DNA from: Halorubrum sp. BOL3-1
GTDB taxonomy: Archaea > Halobacteriota > Halobacteria > Halobacteriales > Haloferacaceae
Direction of reading: 5' to 3'
DNA length: 64,000 bases
NCBI RefSeq assembly: GCF_004114375.1
Contig: NZ_CP034692.1
Location: forward strand, 868,001-932,000
Positions 20,846 through 28,910 of the stretch are shown one piece after another. The notes below the pieces were generated by a model, which was given only the letters and a program-made list of their open reading frames with translations, had not been told where the DNA came from and searched no databases. Both the position numbers and the translations under genes were made by a program. Numbering within the stretch: position 1 is the stretch's first letter; every line of letters starts with the position of its first letter.

Positions 20846-21919
20846 ATGAAAGTCTACCCGAAAATCCCGCGATACGATCATCCCGTCGTCCCGGAGTCAT
20901 TCTTCGACGCCGAGGACTTGGTGCTGCTCGAGAAGTTCGACGGGAGCTCATTCCGCTTCACGCTCTACGACGAGCATCACGCGTCGTCGTACCCCGATCC
21001 CGTCACGGACGCCGCCGATGGGGACGGAAGTCTCATCTTCGGAACGCGACGCTCAATTCGGGGCTGTCATCGCGACGATCTCGAGGCGATCGACGGGGCA
21101 CTCCACCGAGCCGTCCGCTGTCTTCGGGACGGGATCGACGCGGACGCCCTCCGTCAGTGTCACGACGACTACGGTGGCCCCTTGATCGTGTACGCAGAGA
21201 ACTTGGTGTACTCGACGCTAGACTACGGCTACACCGAACGCGATCTCCCCGCGTTGATCGGCTTCGACATCCTTCCCTACGCCGCCGTCGATTCGATGAC
21301 GCCGCCGGGAAACCCATACGCCGAAACCTTCGAGGGGTACCTCTCGTTCGAGGAGGCGTGGCGCGTCTTCGATCGGATTCGGATCGAGGACACCTCGCGT
21401 GACCGGGCGTTCGTTCCTGCAACAATCATCGACGACCCGGCGGCGTTCGATCCGGAGAGCTACGTCGTTCCAGAGTCGTCACTCGCAGACGACGTCCGCG
21501 CGGAGGGCGTGGTCATCCGCAGCGATCGTCAGGACCGACGCGTGAAAGTGGTCCGCGAGGCGTTCGAAGAGCTAAACCGCGAGCAGTTCGGTCGCGATCC
21601 AGACGACGCGGAGACGGGTGCTGAACGGATCGTCGCGATGTACTGTACGTCTGCCCGAATCCGCAAGACAGTGCGTTCACTCGTCGTCGAGGAGGATCGC
21701 GAGTTCGGTGTTCACCTCGTCGAGGACCTGTATCCCCGCGTCGTCGAGGACATCTGGGCCGAACACTGGCAAGAGATTATGCGACTCGAGGTCGAGTTCA
21801 CGCCCGCGGACGTCTACCCACTCGTCGCAAAGCGATGTGTTACGGAGCTCCGAAAGATGGAGACGAACGCCGAACTGAACGACGCTGATCCGACGACAAT
21901 CTGGCAACATCTTTCGTAG
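20846..21919 (+). CDS. ATP-dependent RNA ligase (Rnl family)
   Basis: 357 aa. The nucleotidyltransferase motif I is EKFDGSSFRF with the AMP-accepting lysine at residue 30. A motif-III-like segment is VYAENLVYSTLDYGYTER, motif IV is AEGVVIRS and motif V is RRVKVVREAF. These are the signatures of the Rnl2/RNA-ligase family (PF09414-like). A helical C-terminal domain of about 130 residues follows and may give substrate specificity. The enzyme seals nicked or cleaved RNA using ATP. Its place about 1.4 kb before a tRNA array and 4 kb before Ro60 suggests tRNA or Y-RNA repair; that link is inference. Confidence 0.85.
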   Translation: MKVYPKIPRYDHPVVPESFFDAEDLVLLEKFDGSSFRFTLYDEHHASSYPDPVTDAADGDGSLIFGTRRSIRGCHRDDLEAIDGALHRAVRCLRDGIDADALRQCHDDYGGPLIVYAENLVYSTLDYGYTERDLPALIGFDILPYAAVDSMTPPGNPYAETFEGYLSFEEAWRVFDRIRIEDTSRDRAFVPATIIDDPAAFDPESYVVPESSLADDVRAEGVVIRSDRQDRRVKVVREAFEELNREQFGRDPDDAETGAERIVAMYCTSARIRKTVRSLVVEEDREFGVHLVEDLYPRVVEDIWAEHWQEIMRLEVEFTPADVYPLVAKRCVTELRKMETNAELNDADPTTIWQHLS

Positions 21920-22375: not shown

Positions 22376-22804
22376 ACGGTCGCATCGGTCCAGTTTTCAC
22401 TCGGTACAGGGTGTGTGTCATCGATCCTGTTTCATCAGAGGTGGATTCGATATTCTCGCCAGAACACTCGACATGGAAGGGTGTGGAAGGCGTAGTTGTC
22501 CCGTGTCAAATGCGAGTCCTCCGAACCTCCGTTCCCAGTTCACTCGTTGAGCCGGTCGAGACCGTCACCGTTGATGATCGCTTCGCGTATCAGAGTCGCG
22601 ATCGCTCGTGTGATCACGATCGGACGCGTGGCTGCCTGAAGAAACGACGGCTCTGCCAGCCCGGCGTCCGGTGGTAAGTCGTCGGCAATGTTGCCGTCGA
22701 GGGATCTGGAGGAGTCATCCCCGAGGAATTGTCGCCCGCAGTGTCGAACTTCGCCTGAATGGACTGTGATTCACCGTGGGTGTAGCTAACACACCTGAAC
22801 TAAT

Positions 22805-22814
22805 TTTAATATAA
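22805..22814 (+). promoter_or_regulatory. Strong AT-rich promoter of the tRNA array
   Basis: tttaatataa at 22805-22814 in otherwise GC-rich DNA is the best archaeal TATA box in the region. It faces the array with a start expected near 22840. No comparable box precedes the Ro60 gene. Confidence 0.5.
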
Positions 22815-22958
22815 CTGCTACGATACCCGGTATTGACGTCCGAAACAACCCCGGTAAACGGAGAGTTCCCCAGTATGGTCGACACTCGCCTCAAATCGCG
22901 GCGTGCTCGTTCTCGCTTAGCCGCGAGCCGCGTGTTTGGCGAGTACCTACAAGACCAG

Positions 22959-23279
22959 CGTCCGGAGGGACCGGACGAGAATCGTCGGGTCTGCGTCGCC
23001 ATCGAATACGAGAGTGCGACGCACTCCGGCGCTCTCCGGACACCCTCACCCGCATAACCTGGCTCCCACGCGGATTACCCGTCAGGGGCTGGGGAACACG
23101 GGATTGTCGCCTGCTTTCGTCCAATACTCGCTTGGCTCACAGCCTCACGCGAGTACGGCGGCTAAAGCTCGTGGCAGTTTGGTCTGCGTTCGTTCCTGAC
23201 TGTGGGACGAACGAGCGATGCTGTGCGTGCTGAACGCACTAAGCGTCGCTGGTACGCGTTTCCGCAGCGATAGCTGCGG
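22959..23279 (+). other. Structured untranslated stretch with four hairpins at the head of the tRNA array
   Basis: No protein gene is supported in 22840-23287. Four strong hairpins can be read: CGTCCGG/CCGGACG (22959-22977), TGCGTCGC/GCGACGCA (22992-23023), CGTTCGT/ACGAACG (23187-23213) and CCGCAGC-gata-GCTGCGG (23262-23279). The last ends 8 bp before the first tRNA. These could be decayed tRNAs or processing structures of a long precursor. Confidence 0.4.
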
Positions 23280-23287
23280 CTACCACA

Positions 23288-23363
23288 AGCCCCGGAGTCT
23301 CCGCTGGCGAGAGACGCCGGACTTTGAATCCGGAGGTCGCCGATTCGATTCCGGCCGGGGCGA
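23288..23363 (+). tRNA. tRNA-Gln(TTG), divergent
   Basis: Acceptor AGCCCCG/CGGGGCG (position 1-72 is A-G, unpaired), D stem GTCT/AGAC, anticodon arm CCGGA-CTTTGAA-TCCGG with anticodon TTG, T arm GCCGA-TTCGATT-CCGGC with an A-C mismatch at the 53-61 pair. The overall fold is good, but the two mismatches show drift from chromosomal tRNAs. Confidence 0.75.
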
Positions 23364-23366
23364 CAT

Positions 23367-23439
23367 GCCGACGTGGTGTAATCGGCGATCATACGGTCCT
23401 GTCACGGCCGTGATCCGGGTTCAAGTCCCGGCGTCGGCG
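23367..23439 (+). tRNA. tRNA-Asp(GTC)
   Basis: Acceptor GCCGACG/CGTCGGC, anticodon arm CGGTC-CTGTCAC-GGCCG (GTC), T arm CCGGG-TTCAAGT-CCCGG, discriminator G. It starts 3 bp after tRNA-Gln. Confidence 0.9.
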
Positions 23440-23689
23440 TGGTGCGTGGCGTTGCCACGTGGGGATACTCATCGAGGTAGGCAGCCCGTTGGTGCGATCA
23501 TCTGGATCGCTCTCGCGGTGCTGGGCCCAGCAGGGTCTGTAACCTATCTGAGCCGGTGTGGTATTCCCGGGATCACCCGAAGTACGCCCCTGCGATGAGA
23601 AACGCAATCACGACTACTCGGTCGGGGTTGCGCAGTTGGAAACAGTCGTATAGAGAGAGAATCAACTGCCGAACGCTCGGTAGTCCCGT
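23440..23689 (+). other. 250-bp gap in the tRNA array, no assignable tRNA
   Basis: There is no TTCRA T-loop. A hairpin CGTGGC-gtt-GCCACG occurs near 23445. It may contain decayed tRNA pieces; nothing is supported. Confidence 0.3.
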
Positions 23690-23760
23690 GAGTCGAAGTC
23701 CAGCGGACGACATCTGTGCCTTGGACGCACAGGACCGAGGTTCGAAACCTCGTCGGCTCA
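23690..23760 (+). tRNA. tRNA-Pro(TGG)
   Basis: Acceptor GAGTCGA/TCGGCTC (one G-U), anticodon arm TGTGC-CTTGGAC-GCACA (TGG), T arm CGAGG-TTCGAAA-CCTCG, discriminator A. The D stem is short (GTC/GAC). Confidence 0.85.
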
Positions 23761-23764
23761 GTGT

Positions 23765-23851
23765 GCCGCGACTGGGTATCAGGGAACCCAGCGGCCTGCT
23801 ACGGCGTGGCCGTCTGCATTCGGCCTTCCGGTTCGAATCCGGGTCGTGGCG
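23765..23851 (+). tRNA. tRNA-Ser(GCT), class II
   Basis: 87 nt. Acceptor GCCGCGA/TCGTGGC, D stem GGGT/ACCC, anticodon loop CTGCTAC (GCT) on a weak stem with one mismatch, long variable arm GGCCG...CGGCC, T arm TCCGG-TTCGAAT-CCGGG, discriminator G as in Ser tRNAs. Confidence 0.8.
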
Positions 23852-23853
23852 TC

Positions 23854-23994
23854 ATGACAACGAATGTCTGTCCTGCCTGTGAGGAGGAAGCGTTCCGTCA
23901 CGTCCCGCTCGGTGAAACAACGTCGATCGACACGATTGGAAGCGTGAAAATCTGCGTCAGCGATGACGGTGCGTACTTCCACGGAACGAGGTGA
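23854..23994 (+). CDS. 46-aa CxxC protein between tRNA genes
   Basis: ATG 23854 starts 3 bp after tRNA-Ser(GCT). The product is MTTNVCPACEEEAFRH, then VPLGETTSIDTIGSVKICVS and DDGAYFHGTR, stopping at TGA 23992-23994. A CPAC knuckle and a later Cys suggest a degenerate or small zinc-binding fold; only three cysteines are present. No family recognised. It has no room for its own promoter, so it would be read from the tRNA precursor transcript. Confidence 0.5.
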   Translation: MTTNVCPACEEEAFRHVPLGETTSIDTIGSVKICVSDDGAYFHGTR

Positions 23995-24135
23995 TCGCCA
24001 TTCGTCCCTGTCGTGACTGGGTACTAATGGGCGCATTCGCCTCGAGAGCGAGAGTAAAAAGCTGAACAATACGCGTCTTCCGGCGTCCTGTGAGTAACGC
24101 GAAGCGGGACTATCGGAGCAAGCTTCGACAGTGAT

Positions 24136-24217
24136 GATGAGACATGCGGATAGGCGACCGCGCTCGGTTTGAAACTGAGAGCCGCGAGGCTTCGGAGTTC
24201 GACTCTCCGTCTCACCG
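24136..24217 (+). tRNA. tRNA-Ser(TGA), class II
   Basis: Acceptor GATGAGA/TCTCACC with an A-C mismatch at pair 2-71, D stem GCGG/CCGC, anticodon arm CTCGG-TTTGAAA-CTGAG (TGA), variable arm AGCC-gcg-AGGCT, T arm CGGAG-TTCGACT-CTCCG, discriminator G. The 140 bp before it (23995-24135) hold no assignable gene. Confidence 0.85.
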
Positions 24218-24219
24218 TT

Positions 24220-24305
24220 GGCGGGATTTCCCTAGCTTGGTCAAGGGACTGCGCTGGAACCGCAGCGTCCGCGAGGACACGAGTGTTCAAGTCGCTCTCC
24301 CGCCG
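24220..24305 (+). tRNA. tRNA-Ser(GGA), class II
   Basis: Acceptor GGCGGGA/TCCCGCC, D stem TCCC/GGGA, anticodon arm CTGCG-CTGGAAC-CGCAG (GGA), variable arm GTCC-gcga-GGAC, T arm GAGTG-TTCAAGT-CGCTC, discriminator G. It follows Ser(TGA) by 2 bp. Confidence 0.9.
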
Positions 24306-24352
24306 CTGCGTACCGAAGTGATTCGCAGAGTCGTTGGCGATTCTCGAAGTGC

Positions 24353-24434
24353 GCCGCCATGCCAGAGTGGTCAAACGGACACGGTCGAGGACCGTGTGGG
24401 CAGTCCTTCCCAGGTTCGAATCCTGGTGGCGGCA
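24353..24434 (+). tRNA. tRNA-Leu(GAG), class II, with C at position 33
   Basis: Acceptor GCCGCCA/TGGCGGC, anticodon arm CACGG-TCGAGGA-CCGTG giving GAG, T arm CCAGG-TTCGAAT-CCTGG, discriminator A as in Leu tRNAs. The nucleotide 5' of the anticodon is C, not the near-universal U33. Confidence 0.8.
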
Positions 24435-24476
24435 TCCGGCCATTATGCCGGGAAACAATTCCCGATCAAACGTTGC

Positions 24477-24559
24477 GTCGCCGTACCCAAGTGGTCAACG
24501 GGAAGCGGTTCAGAACCGCTGGCGTAGGTCCTTCCAAGGTTCGAATCCTCGCGGCGACA
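24477..24559 (+). tRNA. tRNA-Leu(CAG), class II
   Basis: Acceptor GTCGCCG/CGGCGAC, anticodon arm AGCGG-TTCAGAA-CCGCT (CAG), T arm CAAGG-TTCGAAT-CCTCG with an A-C mismatch, discriminator A. Confidence 0.87.
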
Positions 24560-24562
24560 TTT

Positions 24563-24634
24563 CTCCCTGTGGTCTAGCGGCTACGATGCCTCCCTGTAGA
24601 GGAGGAGACGCACGTTCGAGTCGTGTCGGGGAGA
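24563..24634 (+). tRNA. tRNA-Tyr(GTA)
   Basis: Acceptor CTCCCTG/CGGGGAG with the archaeal/eukaryal C1-G72 Tyr identity pair, anticodon arm CCTCC-CTGTAGA-GGAGG (GTA), T arm GCACG-TTCGAGT-CGTGT, discriminator A. Confidence 0.9.
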
Positions 24635-24638
24635 CTGC

Positions 24639-24763
24639 GGGACGGTGGAAGAGCCTGGTATTCACACTCTCACCGAGTTTTCACCGGAGATCCGGTACGA
24701 CGGGGAGAGCTCCTTCATCTCAGTTGTAACGAGAACACGCAGGTTCGAATCCTGCCCGTCCCA
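24639..24763 (+). tRNA. tRNA-Thr(TGT) with a 50-nt insertion at the anticodon stem
   Basis: Acceptor GGGACGG/CCGTCCC, T arm GCAGG-TTCGAAT-CCTGC and discriminator A are intact. The anticodon arm reads TCTCA-GTTGTAA-CGAGA (TGT). The 5' anticodon-stem strand TCTCA occurs twice, at 24668-24672 and 24718-24722, exactly 50 nt apart, so the extra 50 nt sit between direct copies of it. Either a non-canonical intron or a duplication. Confidence 0.65.
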
Positions 24764-24797
24764 CTGGCCGATGATCCTTCCCAGGAGAGGCCAACGC

Positions 24798-25204
24798 GCT
24801 CCAGTGGAGTAGTGGCCAAACTCACGGCCCTCTCACGGCCGAGCCCCCGGTACGACTTCGTGGTGAATATAGAGGATGAATTTGTCAGAATTCAGGTTAA
24901 AACTGGCAGAGTTCAAGATGAAAATGTCGTTTTTAATTGTTCCTCCACGAAATCGAACACGAAGGAGTGTCGTGACGAGCCTTATCGAAGTGATGAGATC
25001 GATGGGTTCGCAGTCTACTGTCCAGAGAATGATGGCTACTATTGGGTTCCGGTTGAAGAGACAGGGAATTACGAGAAGTGGCTAAGAGTTGAGGAAGCTA
25101 ACCACCCGAACAGCAACATCAACTGGGCAGAGGATTATGAGCTTGCTGAGCGATTTGCTTCCGCTCATGGTTGATTCATAGGGGTTCGATTCTCCTCGGG
25201 AGCA
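24798..25204 (+). tRNA. tRNA-Glu(CTC) split by a 330-nt insertion before the T arm
   Basis: The 5' part (24798-24846) has GCTCCAG, a D-arm region, and the anticodon arm CGGCC-CTCTCAC-GGCCG (CTC). The 3' part (about 25180-25204) has the T arm AGGGG-TTCGATT-CTCCT, the acceptor strand CGGGAGC that pairs with the 5' end (one mismatch), and A73. Between them lies a reading frame related to PD-(D/E)XK homing endonucleases. It must be spliced out or the gene is dead. Confidence 0.65.
24848..25174 (+). pseudogene. PD-(D/E)XK homing-endonuclease-like frame inside tRNA-Glu
   Basis: The frame reads RYDFVVNIEDEFVRIQVKTG, then NVVFNCSSTKSNT, YRSDEIDGFAVYCPENDGYY and WVPVEE, ending at TGA 25172-25174 just before the tRNA 3' part. 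This matches the PDDEXK_5 group (I-Ssp6803I-like, common in haloarchaea): the D of RYD and the QVK are active-site positions. The normal N-terminal 30-40 residues, including the first acidic residue, are missing. The frame instead runs back into the tRNA 5' exon without a good start (GTG at 24860 or 24863 possible). I read it as a truncated homing endonuclease or an ORF translated from the exon. Confidence 0.6.
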
Positions 25205-25207
25205 CTC

Positions 25208-25301
25208 GGGGCTGACAGTGACAGGCGCCCGTCGTACCATTGACTAGATTACAGGCAATAAGATGGAAACACGGGTCAGCGACGCTGTCATTGTCAGCCC
25301 C
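25208..25301 (+). ncRNA. Y-RNA-like long hairpin upstream of Ro60
   Basis: 25208-25224 (GGGGCTGACAGTGACAG) pairs with 25285-25301 as a continuous 17-bp stem with one G-U. Beyond a 5-nt bulge (GCGCC), CGTCG (25230-25234) pairs with CGACG (25280-25284), leaving a 45-nt loop. There is no reading frame and no tRNA arms. Y RNAs are about this size with base-paired ends, bulges in the stem and a large loop, and are usually encoded beside the Ro gene, as here. The Ro-binding consensus itself cannot be confirmed by eye. Confidence 0.5.
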
Positions 25302-25304
25302 CCA

Positions 25305-25462
25305 TGCGTGTGGTCGTCGAGGTGGTGTATTTCTTCAGCCTGTAAAGCATCACACCGGGAGTCATAGCCCGTTGCACCATCCGTTTCCCGACCACACGTG
25401 GCGACCGTCGAGTCGGGGCGCTGCTTCGCTAGGAACACGCAGGTTCAAATCCTGTCGGTGGC
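25305..25462 (+). ncRNA. Second long hairpin joined to a tRNA-like T-arm module
   Basis: 25305-25316 (TGCGTGTGGTCG) pairs with 25389-25400 (CGACCACACGTG) as 12 bp with two terminal G-U pairs and a 72-nt loop. Directly after it are GCGACCG (25401-25407), the T arm GCAGG-TTCAAAT-CCTGT, and CGGTGGC-A ending at 25462. GCGACCG and CGGTGGC pair except at one position. There is room for only one further arm, so no full tRNA fits. A hairpin plus tRNA-like module recalls bacterial YrlA-type Y RNAs. Confidence 0.45.
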
Positions 25463-25590
25463 ACTATCCATCGAAAACATCCCGGACAAAGAGCGCACGA
25501 GGGTGCTCTCGACACCGGTCCCGTCCCGACAGTTTTCCGGTCGCCATCACTCATCTCGTGGCCGTCGAGTTGGAGTCATCCGTCGCCTCA

Positions 25591-25676
25591 GGAGCCGGAA
25601 GTCCAGGTTCGAATCCCGGCGGTGGAATCCGCCTGATCCACCGTAGTGTACCTAGGTAGCACGCCGTTCTGGCTCC
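25591..25676 (+). tRNA. Candidate circularly permuted tRNA (3' half before 5' half)
   Basis: 3' half: GGAGCCGG (25591-25598), T arm CCAGG-TTCGAAT-CCCGG, acceptor strand CGGTGGA (25620-25626), A. Ten nt later comes a 5' half: TCCACCG (25637-25643) perfectly complementary to that acceptor strand, TA, D arm GTGT-ACCTAGGTA-GCAC, then CTGGCTCC (25669-25676) complementary to GGAGCCGG. No other sequence nearby completes either half. The anticodon cannot be read with confidence. Confidence 0.45.
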
Positions 25677-25699
25677 AGTAGTTTCCCGGCCACGTCCGT

Positions 25700-25830
25700 G
25701 TCTCCGTAGTTCAGGTAGGATAGAGCACTGTCAGAGCATGCTCGGACAAGCCCTCGTTCGGGTCCTCGACCCTCACGAGGACACCGGCCTTCGAGGCCGG
25801 GTGTCGCACGTTCGAATCGTGCCGGAGACA
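25700..25830 (+). tRNA. tRNA-Arg(TCG) with a 56-nt insertion between D and anticodon arms
   Basis: Acceptor GTCTCCG/CGGAGAC, D arm GTTC...GAGC, anticodon arm CCGGC-CTTCGAG-GCCGG (TCG), T arm GCACG-TTCGAAT-CGTGC, discriminator A. Between nucleotide 26 (25727) and 27 (25784) are 56 extra nt containing the hairpin GTCCTCG-accctca-CGAGGAC. TGTC/GACA near its ends could form the short helix of a splice motif. Confidence 0.7.
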
Positions 25831-25865
25831 TCGCTGCTTGCACTCCGTGTGAGCAGCACCGGTAT

Positions 25866-25896
25866 CGGAGTCGCCTGTTGCGGCTCCGGGTGATAG
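25866..25896 (+). promoter_or_regulatory. Hairpin and Shine-Dalgarno before Ro60
   Basis: CGGAGTCGC-ctgtt-GCGGCTCCG (25866-25888, 9 bp with one G-U) is followed at once by ggtgatag, complementary to the 16S 3' end, and the ATG at 25898. Leaderless mRNAs lack this, so Ro60 is probably read from a longer transcript. Confidence 0.55.
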
Positions 25897-25897
25897 T

Positions 25898-27427
25898 ATG
25901 GAATTCAATAAGCCACAGCAAACGGTCGCGGAGGCGACCCGAACCACCAACTACGAAGATGGAGAAGCGTTCGAGCCTGCCGACTCTCGACTCGCACTGT
26001 ACAAGCGCACGATCAACCAACTCCTAGAGGGTTCGTTCTACGAAAGCGATGATGAACAACTCGCGGCAGTCGTACAGCGCTTCGACACCGCGGCAGACGA
26101 GGACCCAGAATTCGTCCTGAAGCTTGCCGCGTACGCACGGCAAGAGCTCTACCTGCGGGACATTCCACAGGTGTTGCTCGTGCTGGCGGCCAACGACGAG
26201 CGATTCAAGGACGACTCTCCGGAGTCGCTGATCCGCGAGTGGGCGCCAGCGATCATCCAGCGGATGGACGAAACGGCGACAGCGCTTGCCGTCCACGATC
26301 AGTTGTTTGGCGGCACGGCCCCGTGGCCCCTCCGTCGTGGGATCGAAGACGCGCTCGTGGCGATGGCTGACGCCTACACGCTCGGCAAGTACGAACTGTC
26401 GCGCCGCGAGGTGACGCTACACGACGTATTCAACCGCATCCACCCAGAACCCGTAGATAACGAACAAGAGGCTCTGTTCGAGCGGTTCATGCGCGGCGAC
26501 CTCGACGACTATCCTGACATCGACCCGGTACCCTCGCCAAATACGTGGGATACGGTCATTTCCGAGCGCGGCAACACCCGAGACGCTTGGGAGACACTCA
26601 TCGAAGACGACGCGTACACGCTCCCGATCTTCGCGTCGATCCGGAACCTCCGGAACATGCTCGAGGCCGGCGTCGACGAGGACACCATCGTCGCTCACCT
26701 CGATCTGGAGGCGGTGCGACACGCGCCGCTGTACCCGTTCCGGTACTACCAGGCGTACACCGCACTGCAGGAAGCGGACATCCACGCACCCGCAGTCGAA
26801 CAGTGGCTGGAAGCCGCCATCGATGTCGCAGTTAAAACCGTCCCTGTCGGCTTCGGCGACACATTCGTTGCCGTGGACCTGTCGGGATCGATGGATCACC
26901 CGCTGTCAGCGAACAGCACGCTTCGACTCAAGGAGATCGGCGCGCTGTTCGGTGCGATACTGGCCGATCAGGGTGCCCAAGTCGGCGGGTTCGGAGACGA
27001 CTTCCAGACCGTTCCGATGCACGTCGACACGCCAGTCCTCCAGCGTCAAGACGCAGTGCTGGCCGCCGACGAGGATGTCGGCAACTCGACGAACGGCTGG
27101 AAGGCAATCGACCACCTCCGCGAGCGAGGTGAACCCGTTGAGCGCATCGTCATCTTTACCGACATGCAGATCTGGGACAGCACGCCGTTCATGGCGCGCG
27201 ATTCCCAGACCGTCAAGTCGGCGTTCGATGCCTACCGAGCGGAGGTCGCTGCAGACACGGCGTTGTATCTCGTCGACCTTGCCGCCTACGGCGATCTGGT
27301 AACACCGGAAGGCTACGAGAACGTCTACAATATCTCTGGCTGGACGGAAAACGTACTCACGTTCGTCAAGCACGCTGAGAAACCGGCGGAGGTTCTCGGC
27401 GAAATCGATGCGTTCGAGCCTGAATAA
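25898..27427 (+). CDS. rsr: TROVE-domain protein, Ro60/Rsr homologue
   Basis: 509 aa, close to the 530-540 aa of Ro60 and Deinococcus Rsr. The N-terminal half is helical HEAT-like repeats forming the TROVE ring (DEDPEFVLKLAAYARQELYL, IPQVLLVLAAND, then APLYPFRYYQAYTAL). The C-terminal von Willebrand A domain has a complete MIDAS: DLSGSM from residue 327 and IVIFTDMQIWD later. Ro proteins bind misfolded small RNAs in the ring hole and Y RNAs outside, and work with RNases or RNA repair enzymes. Immediately upstream are Y-like hairpins and a tRNA array, and downstream a further tRNA. Ro60 is uncommon in archaea. Confidence 0.9.
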   Translation: MEFNKPQQTVAEATRTTNYEDGEAFEPADSRLALYKRTINQLLEGSFYESDDEQLAAVVQRFDTAADEDPEFVLKLAAYARQELYLRDIPQVLLVLAANDERFKDDSPESLIREWAPAIIQRMDETATALAVHDQLFGGTAPWPLRRGIEDALVAMADAYTLGKYELSRREVTLHDVFNRIHPEPVDNEQEALFERFMRGDLDDYPDIDPVPSPNTWDTVISERGNTRDAWETLIEDDAYTLPIFASIRNLRNMLEAGVDEDTIVAHLDLEAVRHAPLYPFRYYQAYTALQEADIHAPAVEQWLEAAIDVAVKTVPVGFGDTFVAVDLSGSMDHPLSANSTLRLKEIGALFGAILADQGAQVGGFGDDFQTVPMHVDTPVLQRQDAVLAADEDVGNSTNGWKAIDHLRERGEPVERIVIFTDMQIWDSTPFMARDSQTVKSAFDAYRAEVAADTALYLVDLAAYGDLVTPEGYENVYNISGWTENVLTFVKHAEKPAEVLGEIDAFEPE

Positions 27428-27451
27428 TCTGGTTCTCTCATTTTTCACCAT

Positions 27452-27524
27452 GCGCGAGTGGTGGAGTTCGGTACCACGCGGTCCTGCCAAGACCGAAACG
27501 GGCGTTCGAATCGTCCCTCGCGTA
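27452..27524 (+). tRNA. tRNA-Gly(GCC)
   Basis: Acceptor GCGCGAG/CTCGCGT (G1-U72 wobble), D stem GTGG/CCAC, anticodon arm CGGTC-CTGCCAA-GACCG (GCC), T arm GGGCG-TTCGAAT-CGTCC, discriminator A. It lies 24 bp after the Ro60 stop, so it shares the transcript. Confidence 0.88.
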
Positions 27525-27584
27525 TTCGGAGCACAGCTCGTGGACTAATCAGCCCAGGAGGTGCTCCTCCATAGAGGTGATAGA

Positions 27585-27878
27585 ATGGCAGTAAGCAATA
27601 CCAACGAGTCAGCTTCGACAACAACTGCCGTCGTAACGATCCGTATTCCCTGTGGCGCAGACGGTGACCTCGTTACCGACGCCAGGGAGCGTCTCTCACA
27701 GGCGGCAGCTGTCGATGACGTACTGATAGACGAACTCCACAGTATCGAGCCAAAACTGTCGGCAACAGTCATTACCGTTAAAATCGCGCTTCGCTGGACT
27801 ACGACAGTGCCCCAAGGGGAGATCAGAGACCGACTTGCCGAGGTTCCAGGCCTTGAGTCGATCCAACGAATCGGATGA
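27585..27878 (+). CDS. Small hypothetical protein at the end of the Ro60 locus
   Basis: 97 aa (MAVSNTNESASTTTAVVTIR). It reads as a compact alpha/beta fold: VTIRIPCGADGDLVTDARER, then TVITVKIALRWTTTVPQGEI and a final helix. No family recognised. It is preceded by aggtgat (27574-27580), a very strong Shine-Dalgarno, and by the small hairpin AGGAG-gtg-CTCCT. It is likely co-expressed with Ro60 and tRNA-Gly. The remaining 27879-28045 shows no gene. Confidence 0.6.
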   Translation: MAVSNTNESASTTTAVVTIRIPCGADGDLVTDARERLSQAAAVDDVLIDELHSIEPKLSATVITVKIALRWTTTVPQGEIRDRLAEVPGLESIQRIG

Positions 27879-28045
27879 GATCAGGGTCTGGCTTGATGAC
27901 GTAGGCTACCACATCGTTTTGAGAAGGCGTTGCCGCCGGCAGGGAGGATGTTAATCTCCGGATTTGGTCCACGTTGTGATCTGGCGGCTGTAGGTATCGT
28001 ACACGCCGAGTCCGGTTTGGAGTGTTTCATCACCTGTAGAGCCGG

Positions 28046-28480
28046 TCAATGATCGAGATACGTTCGGACTTCACGACAAAAGACTGGAAACCACTGGAGG
28101 TCGTGTTGAAGATGGCCATACACTTGTTCATCGTCGAGATCACCTCCGTAATTATGTGCGAGCACGTTACGAAATCCCGCCGCGGCTCCCATGCGAGTCG
28201 CCGTCTTCTCGGAGAGCACGTCCAGTTGTTCGAGCCGATCAAACTTTTCGGCGTTGGTGGGAGGCATTTCTTCAGTCGAATCCCGGATGAGCAGCTCGGC
28301 AATGTCGGTACAAGCTTCGATGGCAACTTGGAACTCCCGTTCGACGATTGCCTGCTGTTCTCGATCGGCGAGATACTCCTCGCGCTCGAGTGATTGTTTT
28401 TGAGCAAGTAGCTTCGTTGCTTCCGCGACAAACTCGACTTTGTCGACGATTCGGTCGATCGTCTCTTTGTTATGCGCCAA
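28046..28480 (-). CDS. hepT: HepT-like RNase toxin (DUF86)
   Basis: 144 aa all-helical HEPN protein. The RX4-6H motif is RNVLAHNYG near residue 105, and DKVEFVAEATKLLAQ and ADREQQAIVEREFQVAIEAC are the conserved first helices. HepT cleaves tRNA and is blocked when MntA AMPylates the tyrosine of the RX4HXY motif, present here (HNY). It overlaps the upstream nucleotidyltransferase gene by 11 bp. Confidence 0.88.
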   Translation of the reverse strand: MAHNKETIDRIVDKVEFVAEATKLLAQKQSLEREEYLADREQQAIVEREFQVAIEACTDIAELLIRDSTEEMPPTNAEKFDRLEQLDVLSEKTATRMGAAAGFRNVLAHNYGGDLDDEQVYGHLQHDLQWFPVFCREVRTYLDH

Positions 28481-28910
28481 CCGTATCCTCCATCTCCGTT
28501 AACAGATCGTCAAACCGGTCGAGACGGTCGTCTCGGGTATATTCCGTCGTTCGATCACTGAAACGCTTTTGTAATTGATCGGCCCGTCGGGAGTTCCCGA
28601 CGAGAAGCACACCACCCTGAAGGGCCGCCACTCCGATCTCTGGTCGTACTCCATCGAGATCGGTCACGTCGACATCATTTGTCCCGAGTTCACGGGTCAG
28701 ATCCGCCATCACGTCGAGGCGAGCGCGGCGTCTATGCTCCGGCGAAAGTTCCTCATCGAACTCGACGGCGACATCAACATCGCTATCCGCGTGTGTCTTC
28801 CCAGTCACCTGCGAGCCGAAGAGGATACCGAGCCGGATCGGATACCGCTGGAGGACGCCACGGACCGCCTCGCCGTCGATCGCGTTTCCGTCGGCGTCAT
28901 CAGAAACCAT
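28470..28910 (-). CDS. mntA: MntA-like nucleotidyltransferase antitoxin
   Basis: 146 aa from ATG 28908-28910. The nucleotidyltransferase motif LGILFGSQVTGKTHADSDVD (GSx10DxD) and NDVDVTDLDG give the three metal ligands. The family neutralises HepT by poly-AMPylation. It is followed in overlap by HepT. The upstream 28911-29141 is AT-rich (tttttaatatc) with promoter-like boxes but no gene. Confidence 0.86.
   Translation of the reverse strand: MVSDDADGNAIDGEAVRGVLQRYPIRLGILFGSQVTGKTHADSDVDVAVEFDEELSPEHRRRARLDVMADLTRELGTNDVDVTDLDGVRPEIGVAALQGGVLLVGNSRRADQLQKRFSDRTTEYTRDDRLDRFDDLLTEMEDTVGA

Follow-up and report, generated by a model that had tools for sequence, protein, structure and literature searches.

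A probable recombination scar joining two tRNA-Glu genes and a broken PDDEXK_5 nuclease gene in a Halorubrum tRNA array

The interrupted tRNA-Glu(CTC) of Halorubrum sp. BOL3-1 is most probably (about 0.8) a recombination scar and not an intron-bearing tRNA gene, derived from a tRNA-invading nuclease of the I-Ssp6803I family with a later deletion. In the 64,000-nucleotide stretch of DNA analyzed here (the window), comparison with related arrays shows that the sequence between the T arms of tRNA-Glu(CTC) and of a second gene, tRNA-Glu(UUC), is replaced by the 3' three quarters (~325 bp) of a foreign PDDEXK_5 gene. On the same comparison, the result is a chimera of two tRNA genes together with a broken nuclease. 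This reading removes a tempting but wrong claim, namely that an archaeal tRNA gene carries an endonuclease intron.

Structure of the chimeric tRNA-Glu locus

ARAGORN called a tRNA-Glu(ctc) at 24798-25205 when introns were allowed and made no call there when they were not. As the preliminary description had stated, the two tRNA parts pair well. Read from the sequence, the acceptor strands (GCTCCAG/CGGGAGC) pair at six of seven positions, and both the anticodon arm (CGGCC-CTCTCAC-GGCCG) and the T arm (AGGGG-TTCGATT-CTCCT) are good. The open frame at 24623-25174 does end 5 nt short of the T arm at 25180; its upstream part is tRNA sequence, common to relatives without any nuclease. The resemblance of the insert to PDDEXK_5, also noticed at that stage, was borne out by the PF11645 profile (positions 34 to 137 of 138; E = 5e-25; 88.6 bits against a cut-off of 26.1), which places a relative of a homing endonuclease inside tRNA sequence.

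The further claim of one tRNA-Glu gene with an intron did not hold. Many genomes of the family share the conserved tRNA array, and sister arrays were compared in ten relatives (L003 to L009 and L014 to L016). In blastn alignments with these ten, homology breaks sharply at window position 24855 and returns at 25180, with 170 to 705 bp between the matching breakpoints in the relatives. The search for an uninterrupted tRNA-Glu proposed in the preliminary description had a twofold outcome: all ten sister arrays contain a complete tRNA-Glu(CTC) (...CCCCCGGTTCGAATCCGGGCTGGAGCA), but the 3' part in the window is the end of a separate downstream tRNA-Glu(UUC), GCTCCCGGAGTCTCC...CGGGAGCA. In L003, for example, it corresponds to nt 52-77 of a tRNA-Glu(ttc) at 1450-1526. 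A spliced archaeal tRNA intron was rejected because the two tRNA-Glu genes are complete and separate in all ten relatives. The acceptor ends of the chimera pair by paralogy, since both Glu genes begin GCTCC, and the single mismatch, A against G, is the position at which tRNA-Glu(CTC) and tRNA-Glu(UUC) differ.

Table 1. Features of the chimeric locus and its surroundings, in window positions
Feature	Position	Strand	Basis
RNA-ligase-like gene near the tRNA array and the TROVE gene	20846-21919		PF09414, 24.7 bits, just below cut-off
Conserved upstream tRNA array: Gln, Asp, Pro, Ser x3, Leu x2, Tyr	23288-24635	+	ARAGORN; order kept in relatives
5' part of tRNA-Glu(CTC), ~54 nt, into the start of the T arm; 3' end lost	24798-24851	+	Sister arrays
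5' joint, where the tRNA T arm (CGGTTCGA) and the nuclease codons (CGGTACGA, R-Y-D) share microhomology	24848-24855	+	Comparison with L003
Fragment of a PDDEXK_5 gene truncated at its 5' end; 108 codons, TGA stop codon at 25172-25174	24848-25174	+	PF11645 profile match
3' joint: 5 nt past the nuclease stop, then T-stem of the second tRNA	25175-25180	+	Homology to relatives restarts at 25180
3' part of tRNA-Glu(UUC), last 25-26 nt; first ~51 nt lost	25180-25204	+	Sister arrays
TROVE/Ro60-like gene of the same island	25898-27427	+	PF05731, E = 1.6e-20

A true tRNA intron, with the nuclease-bearing insert spliced from a tRNA-Glu(CTC) precursor to give a working tRNA, is thus extremely unlikely. 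It would agree with the pairing of the halves, with their acceptance by ARAGORN and with the phage EFP01, in which a related nuclease splits one tRNA into exactly matching halves. Against it, the halves are two genes in every sister array, the nuclease is truncated, and the two joints do not match up, with the 5' part entering the T arm while the 3' part picks up again at the T stem. In addition, no bulge-helix-bulge, the structure that the preliminary description had suggested looking for at the insert ends, was evident in minimum-energy folds, and positions 22500-28500 gave no Rfam intron match, group I included, up to an E value of 1.

The nuclease fragment has a GC content of 45.5%, compared with 60.5% in the tRNA array. 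In an alignment of homologs, it keeps the core D and QxK (RYD and QVK) and lacks profile positions 1-33, including the GxxxE region and the catalytic Glu; G7 and E11 are invariant in the six aligned homologs. Because the N-terminal GxxxE active-site helix is missing, the fragment is a broken PDDEXK_5 member, predicted to be inactive. A simple disrupted pseudogene, named in the preliminary description as the refuting case, comes closer to the truth than an intron. Other tRNA-Glu(ctc) and tRNA-Glu(ttc) genes exist elsewhere in the same genome, so the loss of both genes here would be tolerable. A chromosomal tRNA-Glu(ttc) at locus L171 (G000:C3:413978-414086) was called with a 34-nt intron from the anticodon region.

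The scar is known from one assembly, and an assembly or sequencing artefact is accordingly conceivable; its probability is minimal. The open frame is clean, the joints are sharp, the fragment occurs nowhere else in the genome, and the assembly is coherent, with four contigs and 99% completeness.

Origin of the scar

The 5' joint shares the microhomology CGGT-CGA between the T arm of the relatives' tRNA and the nuclease R-Y-D codons of the window (Table 1), and the 3' joint has no clear microhomology. The source would be a tRNA-gene-invading homing nuclease from the I-Ssp6803I family, without an intron, and it would have entered the array, probably in or beside tRNA-Glu(UUC). A subsequent deletion, with one end in the T arm of tRNA-Glu(CTC) and the other in the CGGT-CGA stretch that matches it within the nuclease gene, would have taken out the intervening tRNAs, the 3' end of tRNA-Glu(CTC) and the N-terminus of the nuclease. 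We infer this order of events; the microhomology at the 5' joint fits a deletion through which the tRNA lost its 3' end and the nuclease its N-terminus. A full-length nuclease intermediate was not found in this array.

The region between the two Glu genes differs by relative and contains either tRNA-Lys and tRNA-Asn or tRNA-Met and a small gene. The latter pair (small gene: MGLFDTVELYDD...) occupies the interval in L007, L008, L009, L015 and L016, which points to a variable cargo site. Between its Glu genes, L003 bears an apparent fusion of two neighboring tRNAs, read from the sequence and independent of the window, which suggests that the region recombines readily.

Array decay by deletion is common, and ordinary illegitimate capture would explain the scar by a stray piece of a nuclease gene pasted in during such decay, without involvement of nuclease activity. 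The tRNA-tRNA fusion of L003 is in line with this explanation, as is the abundance of tRNA pseudogenes in published archaeal clusters (PMC6333295). No close donor of the nuclease was found in the same genome or in plasmids, phages or viral contigs, which also favors capture; the fragment is the only copy in its own genome, and its nearest homologs are only ~50% identical. However, the fragment belongs, of all families, to one whose nearest relatives lie at tRNA genes, and we regard illegitimate capture as rather unlikely. A direct and precise homing insertion between both joints, with no later deletion and an N-terminus that was never present, is highly unlikely. In viral contig L046 and in EFP01, the nuclease does lie directly 3' of a tRNA 5' part, but both copies are full-length, and the EFP01 insert is precise with nothing lost, whereas in the window ends are missing from the nuclease and from both tRNAs.

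Several other unusual tRNA-like sequences were observed in the array. The tRNA-Arg(TCG) at 25697-25832 has a structured insert of ~56 nt between the D arm and the anticodon arm, which is present in L003, L007, L008 and L009, while L004, L005, L006, L014 and L015 have a plain tRNA; the insert is possibly a noncanonical intron with presence/absence variation. A tRNA-like gene at 24640-24764, possibly Thr(TGT), has an enlargement of ~50 nt around the D loop and is ~90% or more conserved in relatives, and its isotype assigned by ARAGORN differs per genome. Further tRNA-like remnants were found upstream of the TROVE gene at 25300-25465 and 25565-25628, and a weak match to YrlA (Y RNA-like; E = 0.3) at 25580-25698. 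The remnants could be Ro-bound RNAs.

PDDEXK_5 homologs at tRNA genes

The general idea that such nucleases invade tRNA genes was supported at other loci. Among 29 haloarchaeal homolog loci, each taken with 1.5 kb on either side, 20 contained tRNA genes, and at 14 of the 29 the nuclease lay between two tRNA-Asp genes of the same orientation. The genome of Halorubrum sp. BOL3-1 has an empty tandem tRNA-Asp pair ~30 bp apart; the tRNA-Asp pair is therefore probably older than the nuclease, and formation of such pairs by the nuclease was unsupported. Named genomes and viral contigs were then scanned with the nuclease alone as the query, and a locus was counted as tRNA-linked when a tRNA lay no further than 400 bp upstream or 150 bp downstream of the nuclease. 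Linkage was found at 33 of 46 named-genome loci and at 24 of 28 viral-contig loci. The loci are not all independent: L107, L108 and L111, as well as L113 and L114, look like near copies, some genome loci repeat those of the earlier homolog search, and inheritance may account for the tRNA-Asp and tRNA-Pro groups. The figure for viral contigs is a raw count, and the argument there is carried by nuclease-tRNA overlaps and the empty site of EFP01. All nearby tRNAs counted (41 in genomes and 37 in viral contigs) were on the nuclease strand, and they represented at least ten isotypes.

The nuclease frame extends into the tRNA at 14 loci, and in half of these (L095, L109, L115, L118, L119, L124 and L130) it terminates at a TAG belonging to the tRNA itself, T8-A9-G10, at about nt 8-10. 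Membership of PF11645 was confirmed for eight phage and viral proteins. Haloarchaeal nuclease frames at L071, L074, L084, L089, L091 and L094 extend to ~265 amino acids and are mostly linked to tRNA-Pro, and the frame extension at L045 resembles a second, degenerate nuclease domain. In Streptomyces phage Jada, a PDDEXK nuclease, an RNA ligase and a polynucleotide kinase adjoin tRNAs.

Comparison of close relatives revealed two defined phage target sites at which the nuclease is present in one phage and absent from another. In Enterococcus phage EFP01, an insert of 463 nt with the nuclease lies exactly between T36 and A37, in the anticodon loop of tRNA-Asn(GTT). In EFDG1 and iF6 the tRNA-Asn is uninterrupted, nothing being lost or duplicated in comparison with EFP01, and about 30 siblings of EFP01 match the same flanks. 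The second case is Escherichia phage 241, which carries the nuclease exactly where Sa157lw has tRNA-Asn. In viral contig L046, the nuclease follows a tRNA 5' part, and the matching 3' part lies 0.7 kb further on. Neither EFP01 nor L046 gave an Rfam intron match up to an E value of 0.5. A group I intron was rejected for the EFP01 insert, which ends in C and not G, has only ~46 nt (36 + 10) outside the ORF and has no Rfam match; the split tRNA-Asn is thus a non-group-I insertion in a phage tRNA gene. In a predicted fold of EFP01 (L047, 2332-2869), the insert ends pair together and lengthen the anticodon stem.

PDDEXK_5 is probably a family of tRNA-gene homing nucleases, usually intronless, of which the window contains a decayed copy; DNA cleavage and homing are presumed for its members. 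We lean towards the broader view that these mostly intronless nucleases form a class specialised on tRNA genes that crosses domains (haloarchaea, bacteria and phages), several with the T8-A9-G10 stop, and that the window copy helped to rearrange the tRNA array. The habit of adjoining or entering tRNA genes is seemingly unreported, as no literature joining PDDEXK, homing endonuclease and tRNA genes was found within an incomplete coverage of the literature.

Comparison with known systems

In the PDB, the aligned homologs matched only 2ost (E = 3.5e-11), which we take to be I-Ssp6803I, the PD-(D/E)XK homing endonuclease of a cyanobacterial tRNA-fMet group I intron. By this match, I-Ssp6803I and the PDDEXK_5 homologs belong to the same family. 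I-Ssp6803I is housed in a group I intron that splices itself, in contrast to the truncated and intronless copy of the window, and the phage relatives EFP01 and L046 show no group I core. Known from one intron-borne enzyme, the family seems to parasitize tRNA genes generally, across three kinds of genome. A 2014 review placed all phage group I introns then known in protein-coding genes, despite the many tRNA genes of phages (PMC3984707).

Archaeal bulge-helix-bulge introns likewise interrupt tRNA genes, but here the halves come from different genes. Published haloarchaeal tRNA clusters are the same kind of island as the window, with a TROVE gene in 20 of 29 and tRNA pseudogenes in almost all, as given in passages of PMC6333295; those passages contain no tRNA-tRNA chimera made by a nuclease.

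SegB of phages T4 and T6 is a free-standing GIY-YIG homing endonuclease that occurs in tRNA arrays and cuts within tRNA genes, and microhomology between tRNA-Tyr and segB was proposed to drive a recombination that truncates segB (PMC13096335). A T4 SegB study is cited as reference 16 in PMC10448857. SegB resembles the nucleases described here as a free-standing gene in tRNA arrays, and its truncation by microhomology resembles the 5' joint of the window. It differs in fold, in being described in phages and in a truncation that is C-terminal; moreover, the role of SegB has direct experimental proof, whereas that of free-standing PDDEXK_5 nucleases is deduced computationally. PDDEXK_5 looks like an unrelated counterpart of SegB that is also found in archaea and bacteria. 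If this is true, parasitism of tRNA genes would help to explain the shuffling and breakage of tRNA arrays, as SegB does in T-even phages.
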